The notes beneath the pieces were generated by a model. It had not been told where the DNA came from, made no database searches, and saw only the letters and a list, made by a program, of their open reading frames with translations. DNA of 54,573 nt from Chloroflexota bacterium (lineage in GTDB: Bacteria; Chloroflexota; Dormibacteria; Dormibacterales; Dormibacteraceae): assembly GCA_005881825.1 (NCBI GenBank), contig VBEO01000059.1, forward strand, positions 1-54,573. Direction: 5' to 3'. The translations under genes and the position numbers were made by a program. This document shows, piece by piece, positions 4,044 through 14,248 of this stretch; positions within the stretch are counted from its first letter, which is position 1; every line of letters starts with the position of its first letter.

Positions 4044-5225
4044 GTGCGCTTCGTGGTCGTCGGCCTGACTCTGAGCTCGGCCTGGGGCAACGGCCACGCC
4101 ACCACCTGGCGAGGCTTGCTCCGAGCTCTCGCCCTGGCGGGCCACAGCTCCGTCTTCTTCGAGCGCGATGTCGCCTACTACGCCGACCACCGCGACCTGC
4201 CCGATCCGCCCTGGTGCGACCTGGTGCTCTACAGGGAATGGACCGAGGTGGCAGCCCGCCTGCGCCGGGAGCTGGCGCAAGCGGATGTCGCCATCGTCAG
4301 CTCCTACTGTCCGGACGGCCTGGCCGCGATCGGCGCGCTGCGCCGGGCGCGGACGCCCTGCGCCGCCTTCTACGACATCGATACGCCGGTCACGGTCGCA
4401 GACCTGCGTGCACACGGACTCGCCGCGGCCAGGGGCGTCCGCTACCTCTCCGCGGAGCTGGTCAGGCACTTCGACCTCTATCTGAGCTTTACCGGCGGCC
4501 CCCTCCTGCGCGAGCTCGAGGACCGCTGGGGCGCCCGCCGGGCGGCACCGCTCTACTGCTCCGTTGATCCCGAGCTGCACCGGCCCGTGCCCCCCGACCC
4601 CGACCTGGCCTGCGACCTCGCCTACCTGGGCACTTACTCGGCCGACCGGCAGCCCGCGCTCGAGTCACTGCTGCTGGAGACAGCGCGACGCCACCCGGAC
4701 CGGGGATTCCTGGTGGCGGGACCGCAGTATCCCGAGAGCCTCGACTGGCCCCCCAATGTGCGGCGGTTGGAGCACGTGCCCCCCTCGCGTCACGCCGCCC
4801 TCTACTCCAGCGCCCGGCTCAACCTCAACCTCACACGCGCTGCGATGGTGGCGGCCGGCTGGTCGCCGTCGGTGCGGCTCTTCGAGGCGGCCGCCTGCGG
4901 GGCGGCGCTGGTCAGCGACCGCTGGTCGGGGCTCGAGCAGCTCCTGGAGCCGGACCGCGAGATCCTGCTCGCCACCCGGCCGCAAGATGTCGGGGCTTAC
5001 CTGAAGATGGATGACGCGGCGCTGCGCGCGCTGGGCGCGGCCGCGCGTCGGCGCGTCATCCGGGAGCACAGTGCGAGCGTCCGCGCGCAGCAGCTCGTGG
5101 AGCTGTGCACGGAAGTCATCAGCGCGCGTATCGGCGCGTCATCCGCGCGCAGAAGTCCGCGAAGAGCTCCACGTCCTGAGGCGGGCTCGCGTAGTGCGGC
5201 CGCAGCCCCAGGTGCTCGGGCGTGA
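4044..5225 (+). CDS. CgeB-like glycosyltransferase
   Basis: 393 residues, predicted GT-B fold of the CgeB/YkvP type. The N-terminal Rossmann half has LTLSSAWGNGHATTWRGLLRAL and a FFERDVAYYADHRDLPDPPW segment. The middle has DIDTPVTVADL, and the C-terminal half has DLAYLGTYSADRQ, NLTRAAMVAAGWSPSVRLFEAAACGA (nucleotide-sugar binding region) and an EQLLEPDREILL segment. The same architecture recurs in the genes at 11224 and 12336. The GTG start is the first of the frame. The last 50 residues are low-complexity Arg/Ala, and the 3' 107 bases overlap the convergent glycosidase gene. Likely adds a sugar to a surface or secreted product; donor and acceptor are unknown. Confidence 0.75.
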   Translation: MRFVVVGLTLSSAWGNGHATTWRGLLRALALAGHSSVFFERDVAYYADHRDLPDPPWCDLVLYREWTEVAARLRRELAQADVAIVSSYCPDGLAAIGALRRARTPCAAFYDIDTPVTVADLRAHGLAAARGVRYLSAELVRHFDLYLSFTGGPLLRELEDRWGARRAAPLYCSVDPELHRPVPPDPDLACDLAYLGTYSADRQPALESLLLETARRHPDRGFLVAGPQYPESLDWPPNVRRLEHVPPSRHAALYSSARLNLNLTRAAMVAAGWSPSVRLFEAAACGAALVSDRWSGLEQLLEPDREILLATRPQDVGAYLKMDDAALRALGAAARRRVIREHSASVRAQQLVELCTEVISARIGASSARRSPRRAPRPEAGSRSAAAAPGARA

Positions 5226-6006
5226 AGCAAAAAGTGAGAGTCACGTCGAAGGCGTCCAGCGCCCGCATCTGGCGGTCGAACCAGCTCTCCCAACCGGGGC
5301 GGTAGCAGTCGGCCCAGCTCAGGCCGGTGCGCAGGTGACGCACACCCAGCCGGCGCAGCATGCTCACGGCCGCGTCGAGCCTCTCGTCCTCGAAGTGGAA
5401 CCACTGGCAGATGCCGAGCGCCGGGGCGTGGCAGGCAAAGTCGGCCAGGGCCAGCTTGGGAGTGCCGTCCTCCCTCAGCAGTCCCATGTGGAAATGGCGG
5501 TAGTAGGAGGAGCCCTCGGCCTCCCGGTGCCGGGTGGTGGCCGGCCACGCCCGCGGCAGGTCGAACAGGCTGTACCAGTGCACCCGCGGCGCCCGCCCCA
5601 CCAGGAGCTCGGCGGTGCGGCCGAGGCCCCACCGCTGCACCTCTTCGGCGCCGAACGTGGAAACGCCGACCTCGGTCACCCATACCGGCTTGGTAGTCAC
5701 CGCCTGGATCTCGCACAGGCGCTGCGGCCACTCGTCGATGGGCCAGTGGTTCCAGTCCAGCGGAAAGCCGTGAACCGCTACCGCGTCGACCTGGTCGAGG
5801 ACGCCCTGGCCGGCGAGGTTCGCCATGAACAGCGGATCGATCGGCGAGATGCCACCCAGCACGCGCACCACGTCGGAGCTCTCGCAGCGCACCGCCTGCG
5901 CCGCCCGCACGGCCATGGAGGCGAAGATCCGCCAGTCGGGGTCGGCTTCGAAATCCCAGTGGGACAGGTTGTTGGGCTCGTTCCAAAGCATCACTGCCTC
6001 GACCAC
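5119..6006 (-). CDS. clan GH-A glycoside hydrolase (beta-xylosidase-like), circularly permuted
   Basis: 295 residues. The protein opens at VMLWNEPNN (E10), the motif that lies at the end of barrel strand 4 and holds the acid/base Glu in clan GH-A. Then come strand 5 (RVLGGISPIDP), strand 6 (VDAVAVHGFPLDW), strand 7 with the nucleophile (PVWVTEVGVSTFG, E112) and strand 8 (RVHWYSLFDLP). Only after a linker (about 181-197) come LGICQWFHFEDERL, VRHLRTGLSWAD and FDVTLTFCFTPEHLG, which look like strands 1-3. So the order is 4-5-6-7-8-1-2-3. A TAA lies in frame directly before the GTG start, and no separate copy of strands 1-3 is present. Both catalytic Glu residues remain, so it may be active on a glycan made by the flanking cluster. 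No signal peptide is seen, so it probably acts in the cytoplasm. Confidence 0.75.
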   Translation of the reverse strand: MVEAVMLWNEPNNLSHWDFEADPDWRIFASMAVRAAQAVRCESSDVVRVLGGISPIDPLFMANLAGQGVLDQVDAVAVHGFPLDWNHWPIDEWPQRLCEIQAVTTKPVWVTEVGVSTFGAEEVQRWGLGRTAELLVGRAPRVHWYSLFDLPRAWPATTRHREAEGSSYYRHFHMGLLREDGTPKLALADFACHAPALGICQWFHFEDERLDAAVSMLRRLGVRHLRTGLSWADCYRPGWESWFDRQMRALDAFDVTLTFCFTPEHLGLRPHYASPPQDVELFADFCARMTRRYAR

Positions 6007-6029
6007 TTAAGCGCACAACTCCAACTGCT

Positions 6030-6110: not shown

Positions 6111-7166
6111 ATGGGGGATGTTGGAAAGCTACTGATCACGGGCGCCGCGGGCTTCATCGGCACCAACGCGGCCGCTCATTTCGCCTCCCGCGGCTGGCAG
6201 GTCACGGGCCTCGACAACCTCGCCCGGCCCGGATCGGAGCGCAACCTGGAATGGCTCCGCCAGGCCCATCCCGGGGTTCGCGTGGTGCGGGCCGACGTGA
6301 CCGACGCCGAGGGGGTGGCCGAGCTGGTCGCCGGCCACGACGCCGTGCTCCACCTGGCCGCGCAGGTCGCCGTGACCACCTCGCTCCTCGACCCGCGGGC
6401 CGACTTCGAGGTCAACGCCAAGGGGACGCTGAATGTGCTGGAGGCGGTGCGCCGGCGAGCCCCCGGCGCCATCCTCCTCTACGCCTCGACCAACAAGGTC
6501 TACGGCGCGATGGAAGGGTGGTCGCTGGTGCGGCGCGGCGCCCGCTGGGAGCCGGTGGCGGGGCCCCGCGGAGTCACGGAATCGGAGCCGCTCGATCTCC
6601 ACAGCCCCTACGGCTGCTCCAAGGGCGCCGCCGACCAGTACGTCCATGACTACGGCCGGTGCTACGGCCTGCGCACTTTCGTGTTCCGGCAATCGTGCAT
6701 CTACGGCCGCCACCAGCGAGGCACCGAGGACCAGGGCTGGGTGGCGCACTTCGCCCTCCGCTTGCTGTCCGACCGGCCCGTGACCGTCTACGGCGACGGC
6801 GCGCAGGTGCGCGACTTGCTCGATGTGCGCGACCTCTGCGCAATGTATGAGTCGGCCCTGGACGCCCGCGTGGCCGGCCGCATCTACAACGTGGGCGGCG
6901 GGCCTGGCAGCGCGCGTTCGGTGCTCGAGGTCCTGGCCGCGCTGGAGAGGCTCTCCGGCCGCCGCGCCCGCGTCGAGTTCGCCGATTGGCGGCAGGGCGA
7001 CCAGCGCTGGTACGTGAGCGACCTGGGCCGGGTGCAGCGGGAGCTGCGCTGGCAGCCCGACATCGACTTCGAGCGCGGCCTGCGGGAGCTGGTGGAGTGG
7101 CTGCGCGGCGATCTCGCCGCAGACCGGCGGCCTCGCGTCGCGGATCTGGAGGCTGCCAGCGCCTGA
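6111..7166 (+). CDS. NAD-dependent sugar epimerase, CDP-paratose 2-epimerase-like
   Basis: 351 residues, extended short-chain dehydrogenase. The NAD-binding GAAGFIG glycine motif is at about 10-16, followed by DNLARPGSERNLEWL, LHLAAQVAV, the STNKVYG block and the catalytic SPYGCSK (Tyr-x3-Lys). The segment FRQSCIYGRHQRGTEDQGWVAHF matches the CDP-paratose/CDP-tyvelose epimerase branch, where an EDQGW motif is typical. It probably epimerises a nucleotide-linked sugar for the nearby glycosyltransferases. It is the first gene of a tightly overlapping operon to 14248; the next gene starts within its stop (TGATG). The ATG is the first good start, with no strong Shine-Dalgarno. Confidence 0.8.
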   Translation: MGDVGKLLITGAAGFIGTNAAAHFASRGWQVTGLDNLARPGSERNLEWLRQAHPGVRVVRADVTDAEGVAELVAGHDAVLHLAAQVAVTTSLLDPRADFEVNAKGTLNVLEAVRRRAPGAILLYASTNKVYGAMEGWSLVRRGARWEPVAGPRGVTESEPLDLHSPYGCSKGAADQYVHDYGRCYGLRTFVFRQSCIYGRHQRGTEDQGWVAHFALRLLSDRPVTVYGDGAQVRDLLDVRDLCAMYESALDARVAGRIYNVGGGPGSARSVLEVLAALERLSGRRARVEFADWRQGDQRWYVSDLGRVQRELRWQPDIDFERGLRELVEWLRGDLAADRRPRVADLEAASA

Positions 7167-8284
7167 TGCCGAAGCAGGTCCTCATCACCGGCGGCGCGGG
7201 CTTCATCGGCTCGCACCTGGCCGACCTCCTGCTCCGCCACGGCCACCGCGTGCGGGTTCTGGACTGCCTGCTGCCCCAGGTGCACGGCCCCGACTGCACG
7301 CGGCCGGGCTACCTGGACCCGGACGTCGAGCTGATCTGCGATGACGTGCGCAGCGCGGGCGCGGTGCGCCGCGCCCTCAAGGACGTGGACGCCGTCTTCC
7401 ATCTGGCCGCCATGGTGGGCGTCGGCCAGAGCATGTACGAGCTCGGCGCCTACACCAGCGTCAACAACCTGGGCACGGCCACCCTGCTCGAGGCGCTGGT
7501 GGAGCGGCCGGTGGAGCGGCTGGTGGTGGCCAGCAGCATGAGCGTCTACGGCGAAGGCCTCTACCGCGACGCCGACGGTGCCGAGGTGCCGGCCGTCGAG
7601 CGCACCCCCGAGCAGCTGCGCCGTCACGAGTGGGAGCCGCGAGACCTGGACGGGCATGTGCTGTGCCCCGTGCCGACGCCCGAGCACAAGCTGCCCAGCC
7701 TGGCCTCCGTTTACGCGCTCTCCAAGTACGACCAGGAGAAGATGTGCCTGCTGGTCGGCGCAGCGTATGGGATCCCGACCTGCGCGCTTCGCTTCTTCAA
7801 CGTCTACGGCACCCGGCAGGCTCTGTCCAACCCCTACACGGGGGTGCTCGCGATATTCGCCTCCCGGATCCTGAACGGGGCGCGCCCGCGGATCTTCGAG
7901 GACGGCCTCCAGCGCCGCGACTTCGTGAGCGTCCACGACGCCGCCGAGGCGTGCCGGCTGGCCATGACCGCGCCGGCGGCGCCGGGCGGGGTGTTCAACG
8001 TGGGCAGCGGAGCGGCCGTCAGCGTGCTCGAGATCGCCCATCGGGTGGCGGCGGCCCTGGGGCGTCCGGACCTGGCGCCCGAGATCAGCGGCCGCTACCG
8101 CGTTGGGGACATCCGCCATTGCTTCGCCGACATCACCCGGGCCCAGCGCGAGCTCGCCTACGAGCCGCGGCAGGACTTCCAGGCAGGCATCGCCGACCTG
8201 GCCGAGTGGGTGGCCGGGCAGGCCGCCGAGGACCGCGTCGAGGAGGCAACCCGCGAGCTGGCGGCACGCGGCCTCACAGCCTGA
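7166..8284 (+). CDS. NAD-dependent epimerase/dehydratase
   Basis: 372 residues, extended SDR family. GGAGFIGSHLADLLL (about 8-22) binds NAD, DDVRSAGAVRRAL and FHLAAMVGVGQSM follow, the Ser/Tyr/Lys triad is in VASSMSVYGEG and SVYALSKYDQEKM, and RRDFVSVHDAA marks the C-terminal substrate domain. An insert around 130-170 (ERTPEQLRRHEWEP) is like that of dTDP-L-rhamnose 4-epimerase-like proteins. Likely makes a second nucleotide-sugar for the cluster. The ATG overlaps the previous stop (TGATG), which fixes the start and implies translational coupling. The exact sugar cannot be read from the sequence. Confidence 0.8.
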   Translation: MPKQVLITGGAGFIGSHLADLLLRHGHRVRVLDCLLPQVHGPDCTRPGYLDPDVELICDDVRSAGAVRRALKDVDAVFHLAAMVGVGQSMYELGAYTSVNNLGTATLLEALVERPVERLVVASSMSVYGEGLYRDADGAEVPAVERTPEQLRRHEWEPRDLDGHVLCPVPTPEHKLPSLASVYALSKYDQEKMCLLVGAAYGIPTCALRFFNVYGTRQALSNPYTGVLAIFASRILNGARPRIFEDGLQRRDFVSVHDAAEACRLAMTAPAAPGGVFNVGSGAAVSVLEIAHRVAAALGRPDLAPEISGRYRVGDIRHCFADITRAQRELAYEPRQDFQAGIADLAEWVAGQAAEDRVEEATRELAARGLTA

Positions 8285-8313: not shown

Positions 8314-9282
8314 ATGACCGCCCGCCGTAACGTCAGAGCCCGCCTGGTGGCGCCGCGCCGGTTCGAGCTGGCGGACCGGCCGGTAGGCCGTGTCCGGGAG
8401 GGCGGGGCCCTGGTCCGCATCCTGGGCTGCGGAGTCTGCGCTTCGAGCCTGCCCCTGTGGGAGGGCCGCCCCTGGTTCGACTACCCGCGCCCGGCCGGCG
8501 AGCCCGGCCACGAAGGCTGGGGAATCGTGGAGGCTGTTGCCCCCGACGTGACGGAGCTGAGCCCGGGCGACCTGGTGGCCACGCTGGGTCTCGATGCCCT
8601 CGCCCAATACCTGGTCTGCCCGGCCACCGAGTGCGTGCGCCTGCCGCACCGGCTGGCCGGCCGTCCGTTTCCCGGCGAGGCCTTGGGCTGCGGTTTCAAC
8701 GTGGTCCGGCGCGCCGGCCTCGAGCCTGCGCAGCGCATCGCCGTGGTGGGGGGCGGGTTCCTCGGCTTGCTGGTGGGGGCGATCGCCCACCACCTGGGCG
8801 CAGTCGTGGTGGTGGCCTCGCGACGCGCGCAGGCCCGGCAACTAGCCGAGCAGCTGGGCGCCGCAGCGACGATCGATTCCAACGACCCGGAGACGGCGCT
8901 CGCCCGCGCCCGCCGCCTGGCACCCAAGGGCTGGGACTGCGTGATCGAGTGCACCGGGCTGCAGGCGCCGCTGGACCTCGCCTCGGAGCTGGTGCGGGAG
9001 CGCGGCCGGCTGGTGATCGCGGGCTACCACCAGGACGGCCGCCGGCAGGTCGACATGCAGAGCTGGAACTGGCGCGGGATCGACGTGGTCAACGCCCACG
9101 AGCGGGACCCTGCCCGCTACCGGCAGGGCATCCAGGAGGCGGCGCGGGCCGCTGCCGAGGGCTGGCTGCGTCCCGAGCAGCTGGTGAGCCACAGCTTCCC
9201 CCTCGAGGAGGTCGGCGCGGCCTTCGAGCTGGTCGGCCGGGCGCCCGACGGCTTGACCAAGGCCGTCTTGAGGATGGATTGA
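8314..9282 (+). CDS. MDR-family (zinc alcohol dehydrogenase-like) oxidoreductase
   Basis: 322 residues. The N-terminal GroES-like domain has GCGVCASSLPLW and GEPGHEGWGIV, the places of the catalytic zinc Cys and His-Glu. The structural-zinc Cys4 lobe of classical alcohol dehydrogenases is absent. The NAD(P) Rossmann domain has IAVVGGGFLGLLVGAIAHHLGA (about 143-164) and WDCVIECTGLQAPLDLA. It resembles threonine/sorbitol-type dehydrogenases and sits between an epimerase and a Gfo/Idh/MocA enzyme, so a sugar alcohol or keto-sugar substrate is likely. ATG 8314 was chosen for GGAGG 11 bases upstream; GTG 8287 in the same frame is the alternative. Confidence 0.75.
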   Translation: MTARRNVRARLVAPRRFELADRPVGRVREGGALVRILGCGVCASSLPLWEGRPWFDYPRPAGEPGHEGWGIVEAVAPDVTELSPGDLVATLGLDALAQYLVCPATECVRLPHRLAGRPFPGEALGCGFNVVRRAGLEPAQRIAVVGGGFLGLLVGAIAHHLGAVVVVASRRAQARQLAEQLGAAATIDSNDPETALARARRLAPKGWDCVIECTGLQAPLDLASELVRERGRLVIAGYHQDGRRQVDMQSWNWRGIDVVNAHERDPARYRQGIQEAARAAAEGWLRPEQLVSHSFPLEEVGAAFELVGRAPDGLTKAVLRMD

Positions 9283-10286
9283 GCGCCGCCACCCCGGCCC
9301 TGCTGACGCCGCGCCTCGGCTTCCTGGGCACCGGCTGGATCGGCCGCAACCGGCTGCGCGCTCTGCGCGCCAGCGGCGCGGCCACGATCGGCCTGCTCTG
9401 CGACCCCGACGCCGGCGCCCTGTCGGCAGCCGCCGCCGAGGCGCCTGACGCCGTCCTGGCCGGCTCCCTGCAGGACCTCCTGTCCGCCGGGCCGGACGGC
9501 ATCGTGATCGCCACGCCCAACGCCCTCCACGCCGAGCAGGCGATCGCCGCGCTGGAGAGCGGCGTGGCGGTCTTCTGCCAGAAGCCGCTCGGGCGCACGG
9601 CGGGCGAGGTGGAGCGGATCTTGAAGGCGGCGCGAAAAGCCGATCTCCTGCTCGGGGTCGACCTCTCCTACCGGCACACGGCCGCCGCCGCGGCGCTAAA
9701 ACGCGCCTATGACAGCGGTGAGCTGGGCACGGTGTTCGCCGCGGAGCTCGAGTTCCACAACGCTTACGGACCCGACAAGGCCTGGTTCCGCGATCCCGCT
9801 CAGGCCGGCGGTGGCTGCGTGCTGGACCTGGGCGTGCACCTGGTCGACCTCGCGCTCTGGATGCTCGACTTCCCGGGCGTCAGGCATGTCGCGTGCGCGC
9901 GCTATGCAGGGGGTCACCGCATCCCGGACACGCAGGCCGCCGCCGAAGACTACGCCGAGATCCGGCTGGACCTCGAGACCGGCGCGATGGTCCGAATCGC
10001 CTGCTCCTGGGACCTGCACGCCGGCGCCGACGCGGTGATCCGGGCCGCGTTCTTCGGCACCCGAGGCGGGGCGCGGCTGGAGAACGTGGCCGGGTCCTTC
10101 TATGACTTCCGGGCCGAGCTGACCAGGTCCACCAGCTCCCGTCTGCTGAGCTCACCGCCCGACGACTGGGGCGGCCGGGCGCTCGTCGCCTGGGCGCTGC
10201 AGCTGGCGGCGGGCGGCGGCTACGACCCCGAGGCCGACCGGCTCCTCACCCTCCACCAGGTGCTGGACCGCTGCTGCGGACGATGA
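9279..10286 (+). CDS. Gfo/Idh/MocA-family oxidoreductase
   Basis: 335 residues. The NAD(P)-binding LGFLGTGWIGRNRLRAL is near the N-terminus. The family's conserved E-K-P appears as FCQKPLGR (about 98-105), and the C-terminal alpha/beta domain has the FRDPAQAGGGCVLDLGVHLVDLAL signature with the conserved Asp and His. Such enzymes oxidise, reduce or epimerise sugars or inositols. The TTG start overlaps the preceding stop (TTGA), and the next gene starts in its own stop (ATGA), so it is translated in the operon. E to Q in E-K-P is mild and found elsewhere in the family; the Lys that acts in catalysis is retained. Confidence 0.8.
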   Translation: MSAATPALLTPRLGFLGTGWIGRNRLRALRASGAATIGLLCDPDAGALSAAAAEAPDAVLAGSLQDLLSAGPDGIVIATPNALHAEQAIAALESGVAVFCQKPLGRTAGEVERILKAARKADLLLGVDLSYRHTAAAAALKRAYDSGELGTVFAAELEFHNAYGPDKAWFRDPAQAGGGCVLDLGVHLVDLALWMLDFPGVRHVACARYAGGHRIPDTQAAAEDYAEIRLDLETGAMVRIACSWDLHAGADAVIRAAFFGTRGGARLENVAGSFYDFRAELTRSTSSRLLSSPPDDWGGRALVAWALQLAAGGGYDPEADRLLTLHQVLDRCCGR

Positions 10287-11219
10287 AGCTGCTGCTGACA
10301 ACGGATGCCGTCGGCGGGGCCTGGACCTTCGCCCTCGAGCTGGGCGCGCAGCTGGCGGCCGGCGGGCACAGCGTGACGCTGGCCGTGCTGGGGCCCGACG
10401 CCCCGCCCGGCCGCCTCGCGGAGCTGCGGCGGGTGCCCGGCGTCCGGGTCCTCCAACACCGCTGCGCGCTTGAGTGGATGCCCGAGCCCTGGGCGGAGGT
10501 GGAGAGCTCCGGTCGCTGGCTGCTGGAGGTGGCCGCGCGCGAGCGCCCCGATGTCGTTCACCTGGGCGGCTATGCGCACGCCGCACTGCCCTTCGAGGCG
10601 CCGGTAGTGGTGACCGCCCACTCCTGCGTGCTCAGCTGGTGGCGCGCGGTCCACGGCACCGGCGCTCCCCCGCAATGGCGGCGCTATGCGGCCGCGCTGC
10701 GTGAGGGCCTCCAGCGCGCGCGGCTGGTGGTGGCCCCCACCGGCGCCATGTTGCGAGCGCTGGAGGCGGAGCACGGCCGCCTCGGCGCCAGCGCCGTGAT
10801 CCCGAACGGCCGGCGCCCCGAGCTATTCCCGCCCCTGGTCAAAGCCGAGCTGGTGCTCTGCGCCGGTCGCCTTTGGGACCCGGCCAAGAACCTGGCCGCG
10901 CTGGAGGCGGCCGCGCGTCACTGCAGCTGGCCCGTCGCCTGCGCGGGCCCCGGGGGATCGGGCGGCGCGGTGCGCCCGCTGGGCGAGTTGACGACCACCC
11001 AGCTGGCCCGCTGGCTAGGACGCGGCCGTGTTCGTCGACCCGCGCCGGCCAGATCTGCTGGCCGGCGTCCTCAACCGGCTGGCCGCGGCGCCGGCGGCTC
11101 GCTCGGAGCTGGCCGGGGCGGCCCGGCGCCGAGCCCTGGAGCTGAGCCCGCAGCGCATGGCCGCCGGCTACCTGAAGGCTTACGCCGGCGTGCTCAGCCA
11201 CCCCTACAAGGCGGCCTGA
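10283..11219 (+). pseudogene. GT4-type glycosyltransferase broken by an internal deletion
   Basis: The first frame (10283 to about 11018) gives a GT-B N-terminal half and the start of the donor domain: MKLLLTTDAVGGAWTFALEL, VVVTAHSCVLSWW, PNGRRPELFPP, LVLCAGRLWDPAKNLAAL, TTTQLARWLG. The reading then becomes nonsense. The family-like C-terminus (DAAVFVDPRRPDLLAGVLNR up to YLKAYAGVL) continues from about 11019 in another frame and ends at 11219. About 45-50 residues expected between LARWLG and DAAVFVDP are missing. They would carry the E-x7-E donor-sugar motif. A deletion of non-triplet length at 11018-11021 explains both. ATGA overlap with the upstream stop shows it was an operon member. A sequencing error alone would not explain the missing block. 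Confidence 0.7.
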
Positions 11220-11223
11220 ACGC

Positions 11224-12339
11224 GTGCGCGTCGCCCTCTTCTACCACTCGCTGGTGTCGGACTGGAACCACGGCAACGCCCACTTCCTGCGCGGCTTTGC
11301 CACCGAGCTCAAGGCGCGCGGGCATGAGGTCCGCACCTACGAGCCCCGCAGCTCCTGGAGCCGGCTGCACCTGGTCCGCCAGCAGGGCCAGGCGCCCCTG
11401 GAGGCCTTCCGCAGCGCCTATCCGGGCATGCGGAGTGAGGCCTACACGCTGTCCCGGCTGAACCTGGATGCGGCGCTGGAAGGGGTCGACCTGGCGCTGG
11501 TGCACGAGTGGAACGACGGTCGCCTGGTCCGCCGGCTGGGAGAGTACCGGGCCCGCTCACCGCGCCTGCGACTGCTTTTTCACGACACCCACCACCGCTC
11601 GGTCACGGCCCCGCGCCAGGTGCCGGCGCAGGACCTGCGCGACTACGACGGCGTGCTCGCCTTCGGAGCCGTGATCCGGGACCTCTATCTCCAACGCGGC
11701 TGGACGCAGCGCGCCTGGACCTGGCACGAGGCGGCCGACGTGCGCGTCTTCCGGCCGCCGCCAAGCCCCCAGCCGCCGGCGGCGGAGCTGGTCTGGATCG
11801 GCAACTGGGGCGACGAGGAGCGATCCCGCGAGCTGCGCCGATTCCTGATCGAACCGGTCGGCGAGCTCGGCCTGCGCGCGACCGTACACGGGGTGCGCTA
11901 CCCGGCCCGAGCCCGCGCCGAGCTGGCTGCCGCGGGCCTCGATTACCGGGGCTGGATCGCCAATTTCGAAGTGCCCTCGGTCTTCGCCAAGCATCTGGTC
12001 ACCGTCCACGTGCCGAGGCGGGTGTACGCCGACCGCCTGCCGGGTATCCCCACCATCCGGCCGTTCGAGGCGATGGCCTGCGGGATCCCGCTGGTGTCCG
12101 CGCCATGGGACGACAGCGAAGGCCTGTTCCGTCCGGGCACCGACCACCTGGTGGTGCGCTCCAAGGCCGAGATGAAGCGCCGGCTCAGGGAGCTGGTGGC
12201 CGACCCCGCCCAGCGCGCTCAGCTGGCCGCGGAGGGCCTGCGCACGATTCGCGCCCGCCACACCTGCGGCCACCGCGTCGACCAGCTGCTGGCGATCGCC
12301 GCCGAGCTGGGGGCCGGCGGCCTGGAGGCCGTGGCATGA
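11224..12339 (+). CDS. CgeB-like glycosyltransferase (second copy)
   Basis: 371 residues. It starts RVALFYHSLVSDWNHGNAHFLRGFATEL, followed by VHEWNDGRLVRRLGEY and a FHDTHHRSVT segment, and has the donor-domain blocks LVWIGNWGDEERS, GIPTIRPFEAMACGIPLVSAPWDD and FRPGTDHLVVRS. These match the CgeB/GT-B pattern of the genes at 4044 and 12336, though the central block differs (an HDTHHR loop instead of D-x-D-x-P). Start GTG follows four bases after the stop of the broken GT4. Probably transfers a sugar in the same glycan pathway. Specificity is unknown. Confidence 0.7.
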   Translation: MRVALFYHSLVSDWNHGNAHFLRGFATELKARGHEVRTYEPRSSWSRLHLVRQQGQAPLEAFRSAYPGMRSEAYTLSRLNLDAALEGVDLALVHEWNDGRLVRRLGEYRARSPRLRLLFHDTHHRSVTAPRQVPAQDLRDYDGVLAFGAVIRDLYLQRGWTQRAWTWHEAADVRVFRPPPSPQPPAAELVWIGNWGDEERSRELRRFLIEPVGELGLRATVHGVRYPARARAELAAAGLDYRGWIANFEVPSVFAKHLVTVHVPRRVYADRLPGIPTIRPFEAMACGIPLVSAPWDDSEGLFRPGTDHLVVRSKAEMKRRLRELVADPAQRAQLAAEGLRTIRARHTCGHRVDQLLAIAAELGAGGLEAVA

Positions 12340-13439
12340 GCGGCGCCGGCCTGCGCATCGCGTTCTTCGGCTCCAGCCTGGTCTCGGCCTACTGGAACGG
12401 GGCGGCCACCTACTACCGCGGGATCATCAAGGCTTTGCACGCTCGCGGCCACCGGGTCACCTTCTTCGAGCCCGACGCCTACCAGCGCCAGCAGCACCGC
12501 GACCTTGCCGCGCCCGATTGGGCGAGCTCGGTCGTTTACGACCCCACCGAGGCTGCCGCCCTGGCCTGCCTGGAACGGGCGGCGCGCTTCGACGTGGTGA
12601 TCAAGGCCAGCGGCGTGGGCGTGCTCGACGACCTCCTGGAGCGGGAGGTCGCGCGGCTCTCCGGATCCGGTCGCCAGGTCGTCTACTGGGATGTCGACGC
12701 GCCGGCCACCCTCGAGCGGATGCAGGGAGATCTCGCCGACCCGCTGCGCGCCCTGGTCCCGGCCTTCGACATTGTGCTGACGTACGGCGGCGGACCTCCG
12801 GTGGTAGAGGCCTACCAGGCGCTGGGCGCCCGGGACTGCGTCCCCGTCTACAACGGCCTGGACCCCGAGAGCCACCGCCCCGCCCGACCGGAGTCCCATT
12901 GGCAGGCGGACCTGAGCTTCCTGGGCAACCGGCTTCCGGACCGCGAGGCGCGCGTCGAGGAATTCTTCCTGGGCGCCGCCCGGCGTCTACCCGAGCGCGC
13001 CTTCCTGCTGGGCGGCAGCGGCTGGGAGGACAAGCCTCTGCCGGCCAACGTCCGCTACGCCGGGCACGTGTACACGGGCGACCACAACGCCTTCAACTGC
13101 ACGCCGCTGGCGGTGCTTAACGTGAGCCGGGAGGGCATGGCGCGCTTCGGCTTCTCGCCGGCCACGCGGGTCTTCGAGGCGGCGGGCGCCGGCGCCTGCA
13201 TCATCAGCGACGCCTGGGCCGGCATGGACCTCTTCTTCGAACCGGCGAAAGAGATCCTGGCCGCGGCCGACGGTGAGGAGGTGGCCTCGGTCCTGGCCGG
13301 CCTCGACCGCGGTCGCGCCCGACAGATCGGCGAGATGGCCCGGCGACGGGCGCTCGCCCATCACACCTACCAGCGCCGGGCTCAGCTGGTCGAGGCGGTG
13401 CTCACCGGGAGCGGGTCGCCGGGCAGCGCCGCGGCATGA
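12336..13439 (+). CDS. CgeB-like glycosyltransferase (third copy)
   Basis: 367 residues. N-terminal FFGSSLVSAYWNGAATYYRGIIKALHARGH, central VYWDVDAPATLERMQ (the D-x-D-x-P loop also seen in the 4044 protein), TYGGGPPVVEAY, PVYNGLDPESHRP, the donor half DLSFLGNRLPDREARVEEFF, VLNVSREGMARFGFSPATRVFEAAGAGA, and a FFEPAKEILAA loop. It is most like the 4044 gene product, suggesting duplication within the cluster. ATG overlaps the previous stop (ATGA), and the following methyltransferase does the same. Role as in the 4044 entry. Confidence 0.75.
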   Translation: MSGAGLRIAFFGSSLVSAYWNGAATYYRGIIKALHARGHRVTFFEPDAYQRQQHRDLAAPDWASSVVYDPTEAAALACLERAARFDVVIKASGVGVLDDLLEREVARLSGSGRQVVYWDVDAPATLERMQGDLADPLRALVPAFDIVLTYGGGPPVVEAYQALGARDCVPVYNGLDPESHRPARPESHWQADLSFLGNRLPDREARVEEFFLGAARRLPERAFLLGGSGWEDKPLPANVRYAGHVYTGDHNAFNCTPLAVLNVSREGMARFGFSPATRVFEAAGAGACIISDAWAGMDLFFEPAKEILAAADGEEVASVLAGLDRGRARQIGEMARRRALAHHTYQRRAQLVEAVLTGSGSPGSAAA

Positions 13440-14248
13440 GCGGACCGCTCGAGGCTCTGGGCCCCTGGTTCCACAACCTGCACCTGCCCGACGGCACCCA
13501 GACCGCCCCCGAGCATCCTCTGGGCGACTACCCCAGCTACAAGTGGCAGCTGCTGGCGCCGGCCCTGCCCGCCGACCTCGACGGCTGGACCGCCCTCGAC
13601 ATCGGCTGCAACGCCGGCTTCTACAGCTTCGAGCTGGCCCGCCGGGGAGCGCAGGTCACGGCGATCGACTCGGATGAGCGCTACCTGGCCCAGGCCCGCT
13701 GGGCGGCCGCCGAGTACGGGCTGGAGGACCAGATCCGGTGGCGGCAGATGCAGGTCTACGAGCTGGCGGGCAGCGATCGCCGCTACGACCTGGTGCTCTT
13801 CCTCGGCGTCTTCTACCATCTGCGCTACCCGCTTCTGGGGTTGGACATCGTGTCCCAGAAGGTGGGCCGGCTGCTGGCCTTCCAAACCATGACACTGCCT
13901 GGCGACGAGGTGGCCGAGGTGCCTGTGGACGGCCACGTGCTGGACCGCGATCCCATGCTCCAGCCGGGCTGGCCGCGGATGGCCTTCATCGAGAAGAGCT
14001 GGGCGGGCGACCCCACGAACTGGTGGGTCCCCAACCGCGCGGCGGTCGAAGCCGTGCTGCGCTCCAGCGGCCTGTGCGTGCGGGCTCGCCCGGCAGATGA
14101 GATGTACGTGTGCGAACCAGATCCCGAGCATCCCTCCTGCGTCACCACCTGGGACGCGGCCGAGTTCCTGGCCGCCACCGGCCGTGACAGCTCAGGCGGG
14201 CAGGTGAAAAGGCACGCTGGTCACCACCACGCCGCGGAGCGGACGTAG
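13436..14248 (+). CDS. SAM-dependent methyltransferase, TIGR04290-like
   Basis: 270 residues. The opening block PWFHNLHLPDGTQTAPEHPLGDYPSYKW, then ALDIGCNAGFYSFELARRGA (SAM-binding motif I, about 59-78), AIDSDERYLAQARWAAAEYGL and VLFLGVFYHLRYPLLGLD, are the hallmarks I associate with the TIGR04290 (Rta_06860) methyltransferase family. That family occurs in similar glycosyltransferase/epimerase clusters. The name is recalled, not searched. Last gene of the plus-strand operon. Its 3' 57 bases overlap the convergent permease gene, and the last 15 residues are probably read-through. Likely O-methylates a sugar in the product. Confidence 0.75.
   Translation: MSGPLEALGPWFHNLHLPDGTQTAPEHPLGDYPSYKWQLLAPALPADLDGWTALDIGCNAGFYSFELARRGAQVTAIDSDERYLAQARWAAAEYGLEDQIRWRQMQVYELAGSDRRYDLVLFLGVFYHLRYPLLGLDIVSQKVGRLLAFQTMTLPGDEVAEVPVDGHVLDRDPMLQPGWPRMAFIEKSWAGDPTNWWVPNRAAVEAVLRSSGLCVRARPADEMYVCEPDPEHPSCVTTWDAAEFLAATGRDSSGGQVKRHAGHHHAAERT

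Follow-up and report, generated by a model that had tools for sequence, protein, structure and literature searches.

Background

To our knowledge, few natural circular permutations of a catalytic TIM barrel are well documented, and the glucansucrases of glycoside hydrolase (GH) family 70, which belong to clan GH-H, present the standard case. Their permutation is described as recognised, natural and confirmed by structure (PMC8398850). MalS, a periplasmic alpha-amylase of GH13_19, is likewise presented as a glycoside hydrolase with circularly permutated domains (PMC10223318). Searches of open PMC papers for circular permutation led to GH70, GH13_19, CE4 and others, and among the papers listed none described a permuted enzyme of clan GH-A. 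Here we describe a family of this kind, starting from a gene on the minus strand at 5119-6006 of contig VBEO01000059.1 of a Chloroflexota bacterium (assembly GCA_005881825.1), a stretch of 54,573 nucleotides called the window below. Segments of its GH-A domain are swapped in every member examined, and the protein very probably folds, as judged from alignments and a structural model, into a complete (beta/alpha)8 barrel that is likely a retaining beta-glycosidase.

By sequence, the closest solved relative of the permuted protein is PslG (PDB 5bx9, 4zn2), which we take to be filed under GH39. The catalytic glutamate regions of both align once the permuted sequence is rotated; unlike it, PslG has the canonical strand order and is longer (416 residues in the entry). 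Close relatives are also found in fusions of a GH domain with an epimerase, for example RHE_RS22270 of Rhizobium etli CFN 42 plasmid p42b, which databases name NAD-dependent epimerase or CDP-paratose 2-epimerase. They share the domain, the catalytic glutamate pair and the type of gene cluster, but keep the canonical strand order and include, in one chain with the GH domain, the epimerase for which the window has its own gene. Likeness to GH70 is meant without any claim of homology; the glucansucrases are far larger multidomain enzymes of an alpha-amylase-type clan. MalS differs as a periplasmic alpha-amylase of GH13.

Results

Swapped segments of a clan GH-A barrel

Canonical clan GH-A barrels run from strand 1 to strand 8 sequentially. 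The sequence-only reading had proposed from motif order that the protein in the window runs through strands 4-8 first and strands 1-3 afterwards, and this order is supported here. The motifs WNEPNN (with Glu10), VTEVG (with Glu112), LGICQWFHFED, LRTGLSWAD and TLTFCFTPE were each found once and in the claimed succession, and their assignment to strands was borne out by profile alignment and by the strands of an AlphaFold2 model. The stop codon said to precede the start is an in-frame TAA; because it abuts the GTG, the N-terminus is fixed and no N-terminal piece is concealed.

Comparison with PslG revealed the swap directly. A phmmer search of PDB sequences matched PslG in two exchanged pieces (query 198-293 to PslG 22-128, query 3-42 to PslG 132-169), a match not significant alone (E 0.16). 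The native family profile (18 sequences) found PslG with a whole-protein E of 7.5e-10, again in swapped pieces (i-E 0.37 and 3.4e-5), and the rotated profile (nine sequences, so that the two differ in row number) aligned it in one piece over PslG 25-306 with E 2.1e-14. Eighteen canonical GH-A proteins from the host's phylum served as a second comparison set: the native profile matched 14 of them in two swapped pieces, the first weak alone, and four in a single piece; with the rotated profile, each of the 18 aligned in a single piece spanning the join of the native ends. When the same alignment was rotated stepwise against this set, the native order scored 59.4 bits, a cut at position 45 gave 32.9, and cuts at 160-205 were best (81.1-81.5 bits), with 81.5 for the alignment recut between strands 8 and 1.

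The family alignment comprised 136 members (46 proteins including that of the window, 80 loci from named genomes and 10 more distant loci). Glu10, Glu112 and Asn9 are invariant in all 136, as are other active-site residues around the glutamate pair, and both glutamate positions are also glutamate in 33/33 sampled fusions and 20/20 other GH-A proteins. The GH39 Pfam family PF01229 gave no match at E <= 1 to either the native or the rotated sequence, even though PslG is the best solved relative by sequence. Glyco_hydro_cc (PF11790) scored 20.0 with the native and 23.4 with the rotated sequence at a curated cut-off of 21, and a precomputed match to it exists for only some of the listed relatives. 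If GH70 within clan GH-H is taken as a guide, strand order alone would not exclude membership of clan GH-A.

Predicted fold

The AlphaFold2 model (predicted local distance difference test score, pLDDT, 84.1) contains eight strands in one chain, at residues 2-7, 47-53, 75-80, 108-113, 142-144, 198-200, 224-230 and 254-260. Residues 198-290, which the earlier reading had named as a possible separate domain, supply three of these eight strands. TIM barrels aligned structurally to the model over residues 1-295, in keeping with a predicted (beta/alpha)8 fold. Neither Foldseek nor VIA-align listed PslG or another GH39 structure among its best 50 rows, and the VIA-align rows include GH5 endoglucanases amid unrelated barrels. 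As both programs are sequential aligners, this absence is expected, and we do not count it against kinship.

In the predicted closed barrel, the acid/base would be Glu10 (strand 4) and the nucleophile Glu112 (strand 7), presumably helped by Asn9, Arg226, His79 and Trp144. The cut would lie in the loop between helix 3 and strand 4, on the face opposite the active site, so that new termini at this point would not disturb catalysis. The loop that follows strand 8 (the PRAWPATTRHREAEGSSYYRH region, residues 150-171, window 5494-5559) is strongly conserved and modelled at pLDDT below 50; it is perhaps a substrate or partner site.

A large and uniform family

Whether the permutation is private to this gene or shared by a family had been left as a question; it is family-wide, and the family is large. 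At least 8000 candidate relatives pass E <= 0.001 (8000/8000 scored), and 120 relatives among the matches listed are 73-100% identical over at least 96% of the query, with lengths of 282-333 residues. Locus counts given below refer to the best 80 of 567 named-genome stretches encoding a relative, which are 68-76% identical to the window protein. All 80 contain exactly one swapped pair in a single open reading frame. No third piece was present in any of them, which rules out a hidden second set of strands, an arrangement among homologues that would have spoken against the earlier reading. The match begins at query residue 1 in 77 loci and at residue 2 in the other three, and a stop follows 293-323 codons downstream. 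Record titles among the 80 loci, many of them metagenome-assembled genomes, name Acidobacteria, Myxococcales, Anaeromyxobacter, Verrucomicrobia, Planctomycetota, Nitrospirae, Gemmatimonadales, several classes of Proteobacteria, Desulfarculales and Adhaeribacter. The permuted form is found in records whose titles declare a complete genome (Anaeromyxobacter oryzae, Sorangium cellulosum, Minicystis rosea), the two pieces are adjacent and swapped in 18/18 genomes searched whole, and in 97/97 of the plasmid records listed the permuted match spans 80% or more of the query.

Of 400 genomes from the phylum of the host, 11 contain the gene, at 12 loci in all. Those outside the host are 52-65% identical, and after these 12 the scores drop steeply, to 49 bits or less. 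Each of the two pieces at the 12 loci scored at least 129 bits with the rotated profile, above the 104 bits of the best canonical match. The host's own genome has a single match at E <= 0.01. None of its 60 nearest relatives searched has a match, and the gene was therefore probably acquired sideways by the host lineage. G+C content is 0.725 in the cluster and 0.710 in the rest of the window. One genome (G327:C170:43309-48158) has the permuted gene twice; the copies are oppositely oriented, with about 3 kb between them, and show 58% and 65% identity to that of the window.

A probable unpermuted sister

We identified, by sequence comparison, a probable canonical-order sister of the permuted family in the N-terminal half of the GH-epimerase fusions. 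A protein of 697 residues from Rhodospirillaceae SYSU D60014 matches the rotated profile in canonical order over positions 3-286 of the profile's 295, and an NAD-dependent epimerase makes up the second half of this protein. Of 142 relatives of it, the 120 listed all carry epimerase domains, and these 120, the nearest to that one protein, form our fusion set. The rotated profile matched 120/120 in one piece spanning the join (median 202 bits), and the native profile matched 119/120 in swapped order. After rotation, 33 sampled fusions are 23-39% identical to the window protein. A careful tree, built from 33 domains of the permuted type, 33 of the fused type and 20 of other GH-A proteins, joins the permuted clade (support 100/98) and the fused clade (97/95) with support 99/96.

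The epimerase half leads to the same neighbourhood. Of the two NAD-dependent epimerases encoded next to the permuted gene (labelled EpiA and EpiB here), EpiA is nearer to the fused half in 119/120 fusions, with median identity of 49%. What is one protein elsewhere thus corresponds to two adjoining genes in the window, one of them re-cut.

Plasmid records contain the canonical half in 50 cases and the permuted form in at least 97; among the matches listed no accession holds both, these being replicons and not genomes. Since the two forms occur together in five clusters and in one genome, we do not uphold a rule of one form or the other.

Both forms in one cluster

In five of the 80 permuted loci (L037, L030, L056, L038 and L073), the same cluster also contains a canonical-order fusion of the GH domain with an EpiA-type epimerase. 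One or both catalytic glutamates are lost in all five of these canonical halves. Among 121 other distinct canonical domains (the 120 listed fusions and that of R. etli), whose surroundings are mostly unknown, such a loss occurs once, in P0173, where both glutamates are replaced (Q/S). In a quick tree, the five degenerate halves form two pairs and one long-branch row, which needs at least two origins. On balance, though by no wide measure, we favour the reading that the huge, multi-phylum permuted GH-A family has functionally replaced the unpermuted hydrolase of the fusion in the same glycan pathway, the co-clustered unpermuted copy being now a pseudoenzyme.

Gene neighbourhood

The features of the window are collected in Table 1. 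The glycosyltransferase gene at 4044-5225 overlaps the 3' end of the permuted gene head-on by 107 bp (5119-5225), with its last residues antisense. On the other side, the start of EpiA is divergent from that of the permuted gene at a distance of 104 bp. CgeB is presumably an apt label for Glyco_trans_1_2 proteins, for which our searches give PF13524. Homologues of the GT4-type gene align in one frame to about 11032 and in another from about 11019, with 37-50 homologue residues unmatched between; this is apparently a frameshift or a sequencing error.

Table 1. Features in and around the permuted gene (locus counts out of 80 are affected by some contigs ending early; EpiA, EpiB, cgeB_B and cgeB_C are our labels)
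Feature	Position	Strand	Basis and remarks
Glyco_trans_1_2 glycosyltransferase	4044..5225	+	PF13524 1.8e-38; 66/80 loci
Permuted GH-A protein	5119..6006	-	295 residues, GTG start, TGA stop
Residues 196-295, corresponding to canonical strands 1-3 (LGICQWFHFED, LRTGLSWAD, TLTFCFTPE), end MTRRYAR	5122..5421	-	PDB sequence search, profile alignments, predicted strands
Residues 1-194, corresponding to canonical strands 4-8 plus helix 8	5425..6006	-	Profile alignments, predicted strands
Glu112, predicted nucleophile, codon GAG	5671..5673	-	Conserved in aligned members, fusions, other GH-A
Glu10, predicted acid/base, codon GAG	5977..5979	-	Conserved in aligned members, fusions, other GH-A
In-frame TAA immediately ahead of GTG start	6007..6009	-	Sequence
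EpiA, stand-alone NAD-dependent epimerase	6111..7166	+	PF01370; nearest the epimerase half of fusions
EpiB, second NAD-dependent epimerase	7166..8284	+	PF01370; 35/80 loci
Zinc-type dehydrogenase (start chosen)	8314..9282	+	Name from annotated homologues; 24/80 loci
Gfo/Idh/MocA oxidoreductase (start approximate)	9285..10286	+	PF01408, PF22725; 24/80 loci
GT4-type glycosyltransferase, apparently frameshifted near 11019-11032 (piece edges approximate)	10283..11201	+	Homologue alignment; GT4 in 42/80 loci
Glycosyltransferase cgeB_B	11224..12339	+	42/80 loci
Glycosyltransferase cgeB_C	12336..13439	+	38/80 loci
TIGR04290 family methyltransferase	13436..14248	+	332.6 bits, cut-off 300

The methyltransferase recurs in 61/80 loci, 57 of these on the strand of the permuted gene, and a homologue of EpiA in 41/80, a count that includes epimerases at 25-29% identity. 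Other recurrent neighbours have no counterpart in the cluster of the window: a nucleotidyltransferase (54/80), an inositol-3-phosphate synthase-like protein (38/80), a histidine phosphatase (37/80), another GT4 (23/80), a PIG-L deacetylase (22/80) and a GNAT protein (17/80). The synthase-like gene near the permuted gene (L035, L059, L010 and others) scores 527 bits with TIGR03450, below the cut-off of 638. Together, the recurrent synthase-like, histidine phosphatase, nucleotidyltransferase and PIG-L genes hint at an inositol- or aminocyclitol-containing glycan.

Similar clusters are present on pSymB of Sinorhizobium meliloti, with the permuted form, and on p42b of R. etli CFN 42, with the fused form; both also contain the zinc-binding dehydrogenase. 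In S. meliloti R11 pSymB (L152, 18001-21351), the permuted gene is adjoined by two genes not seen in the cluster of the window, one for a polysaccharide pyruvyl transferase, the other for an F420 hydrogenase-like protein.

Discussion

The permuted protein is likely a cytosolic retaining beta-glycosidase or transglycosidase of glycan assembly; a cytosolic location is suggested by the lack of room for a signal peptide. It would trim or transfer sugar on the glycan that is assembled by the glycosyltransferases, epimerases and methyltransferase encoded around it, a step that it may have taken over, in some clusters, from the GH half of the fusion. The permuted form would have arisen once, probably by tandem duplication and subsequent trimming of a stand-alone GH domain.

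A permuted barrel devoid of hydrolase activity, a pseudoenzyme that would bind the cluster's epimerase or glycosyltransferases or act as their scaffold, is an unlikely alternative that deserves consideration, as 120/120 listed relatives of the L131 protein have the related GH half joined to an epimerase and some fusion halves have lost catalytic glutamates. Such losses were, however, observed in canonical copies, and the permuted members keep both glutamates and the active-site set without exception (136/136), although a non-catalytic domain could drift. Still less probable is a secreted or periplasmic beta-xylosidase degrading polysaccharides, the name given to many listed relatives by JGI or NCBI. 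This label is a database name behind which we saw no assay, and the GH39 Pfam family is not matched at E <= 1. Strand 4 begins at residue 2, where no signal peptide fits, and in six of the 80 loci an in-frame stop lies at most 5 codons ahead of the start (4 or fewer open codons), as in the window; moreover, the neighbours are glycan-building genes. That the swapped order stems from a chimeric assembly, from faulty gene calling or from one piece of a tandem pair has a vanishingly small probability and is refuted, despite the draft contig and the apparently frameshifted GT4 neighbour, by the swapped pair in 80/80 named-genome loci, complete-genome records among them, and by the plasmid records and whole genomes described above.

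Several points weigh against the reading of a permuted, catalytically active family that replaced the fused hydrolase. The fold and the activity of the permuted family are predictions; loop 150-171 is poorly modelled despite its strong conservation, and the two models compared use alignments of differing depth and diversity (46 close and 34 more diverse rows). No tandem-duplicated intermediate occurs among the sequences examined. The careful tree flags long outgroup branches (L132, L133), and the quick tree sets the permuted branch beside two fusions within the fusion group (support 87); as the trees differ, the permuted form may be sister to the fusions or may descend from them. With regard to replacement, SYSU D60014 has a permuted gene and, at a separate locus, a fusion with both glutamates intact, so that takeover is not universal. 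The 120 fusions are those nearest to one protein, and some of their genomes may also contain a permuted gene. Of the five degenerate halves, that of L038 is truncated where its contig ends, and that of L073, on a long branch, matches only weakly (25.4 bits).

The present results describe a family-wide natural circular permutation with an identified unpermuted counterpart, which is a stronger case than that made from the single sequence. What they add to it is the canonical-order sister and the correspondence of its epimerase half to a neighbour gene of the window. Order-dependent searches detect only half of the protein at once, which suggests a possible explanation for the poor annotation of the family. 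The same enzyme domain occurs naturally in both chain orders, in five clusters side by side, and such a pair offers a clean test of how segment order affects folding, stability and partner fusion with catalytic residues unchanged. As the permuted gene is present on pSymB of S. meliloti, its function is genetically testable.
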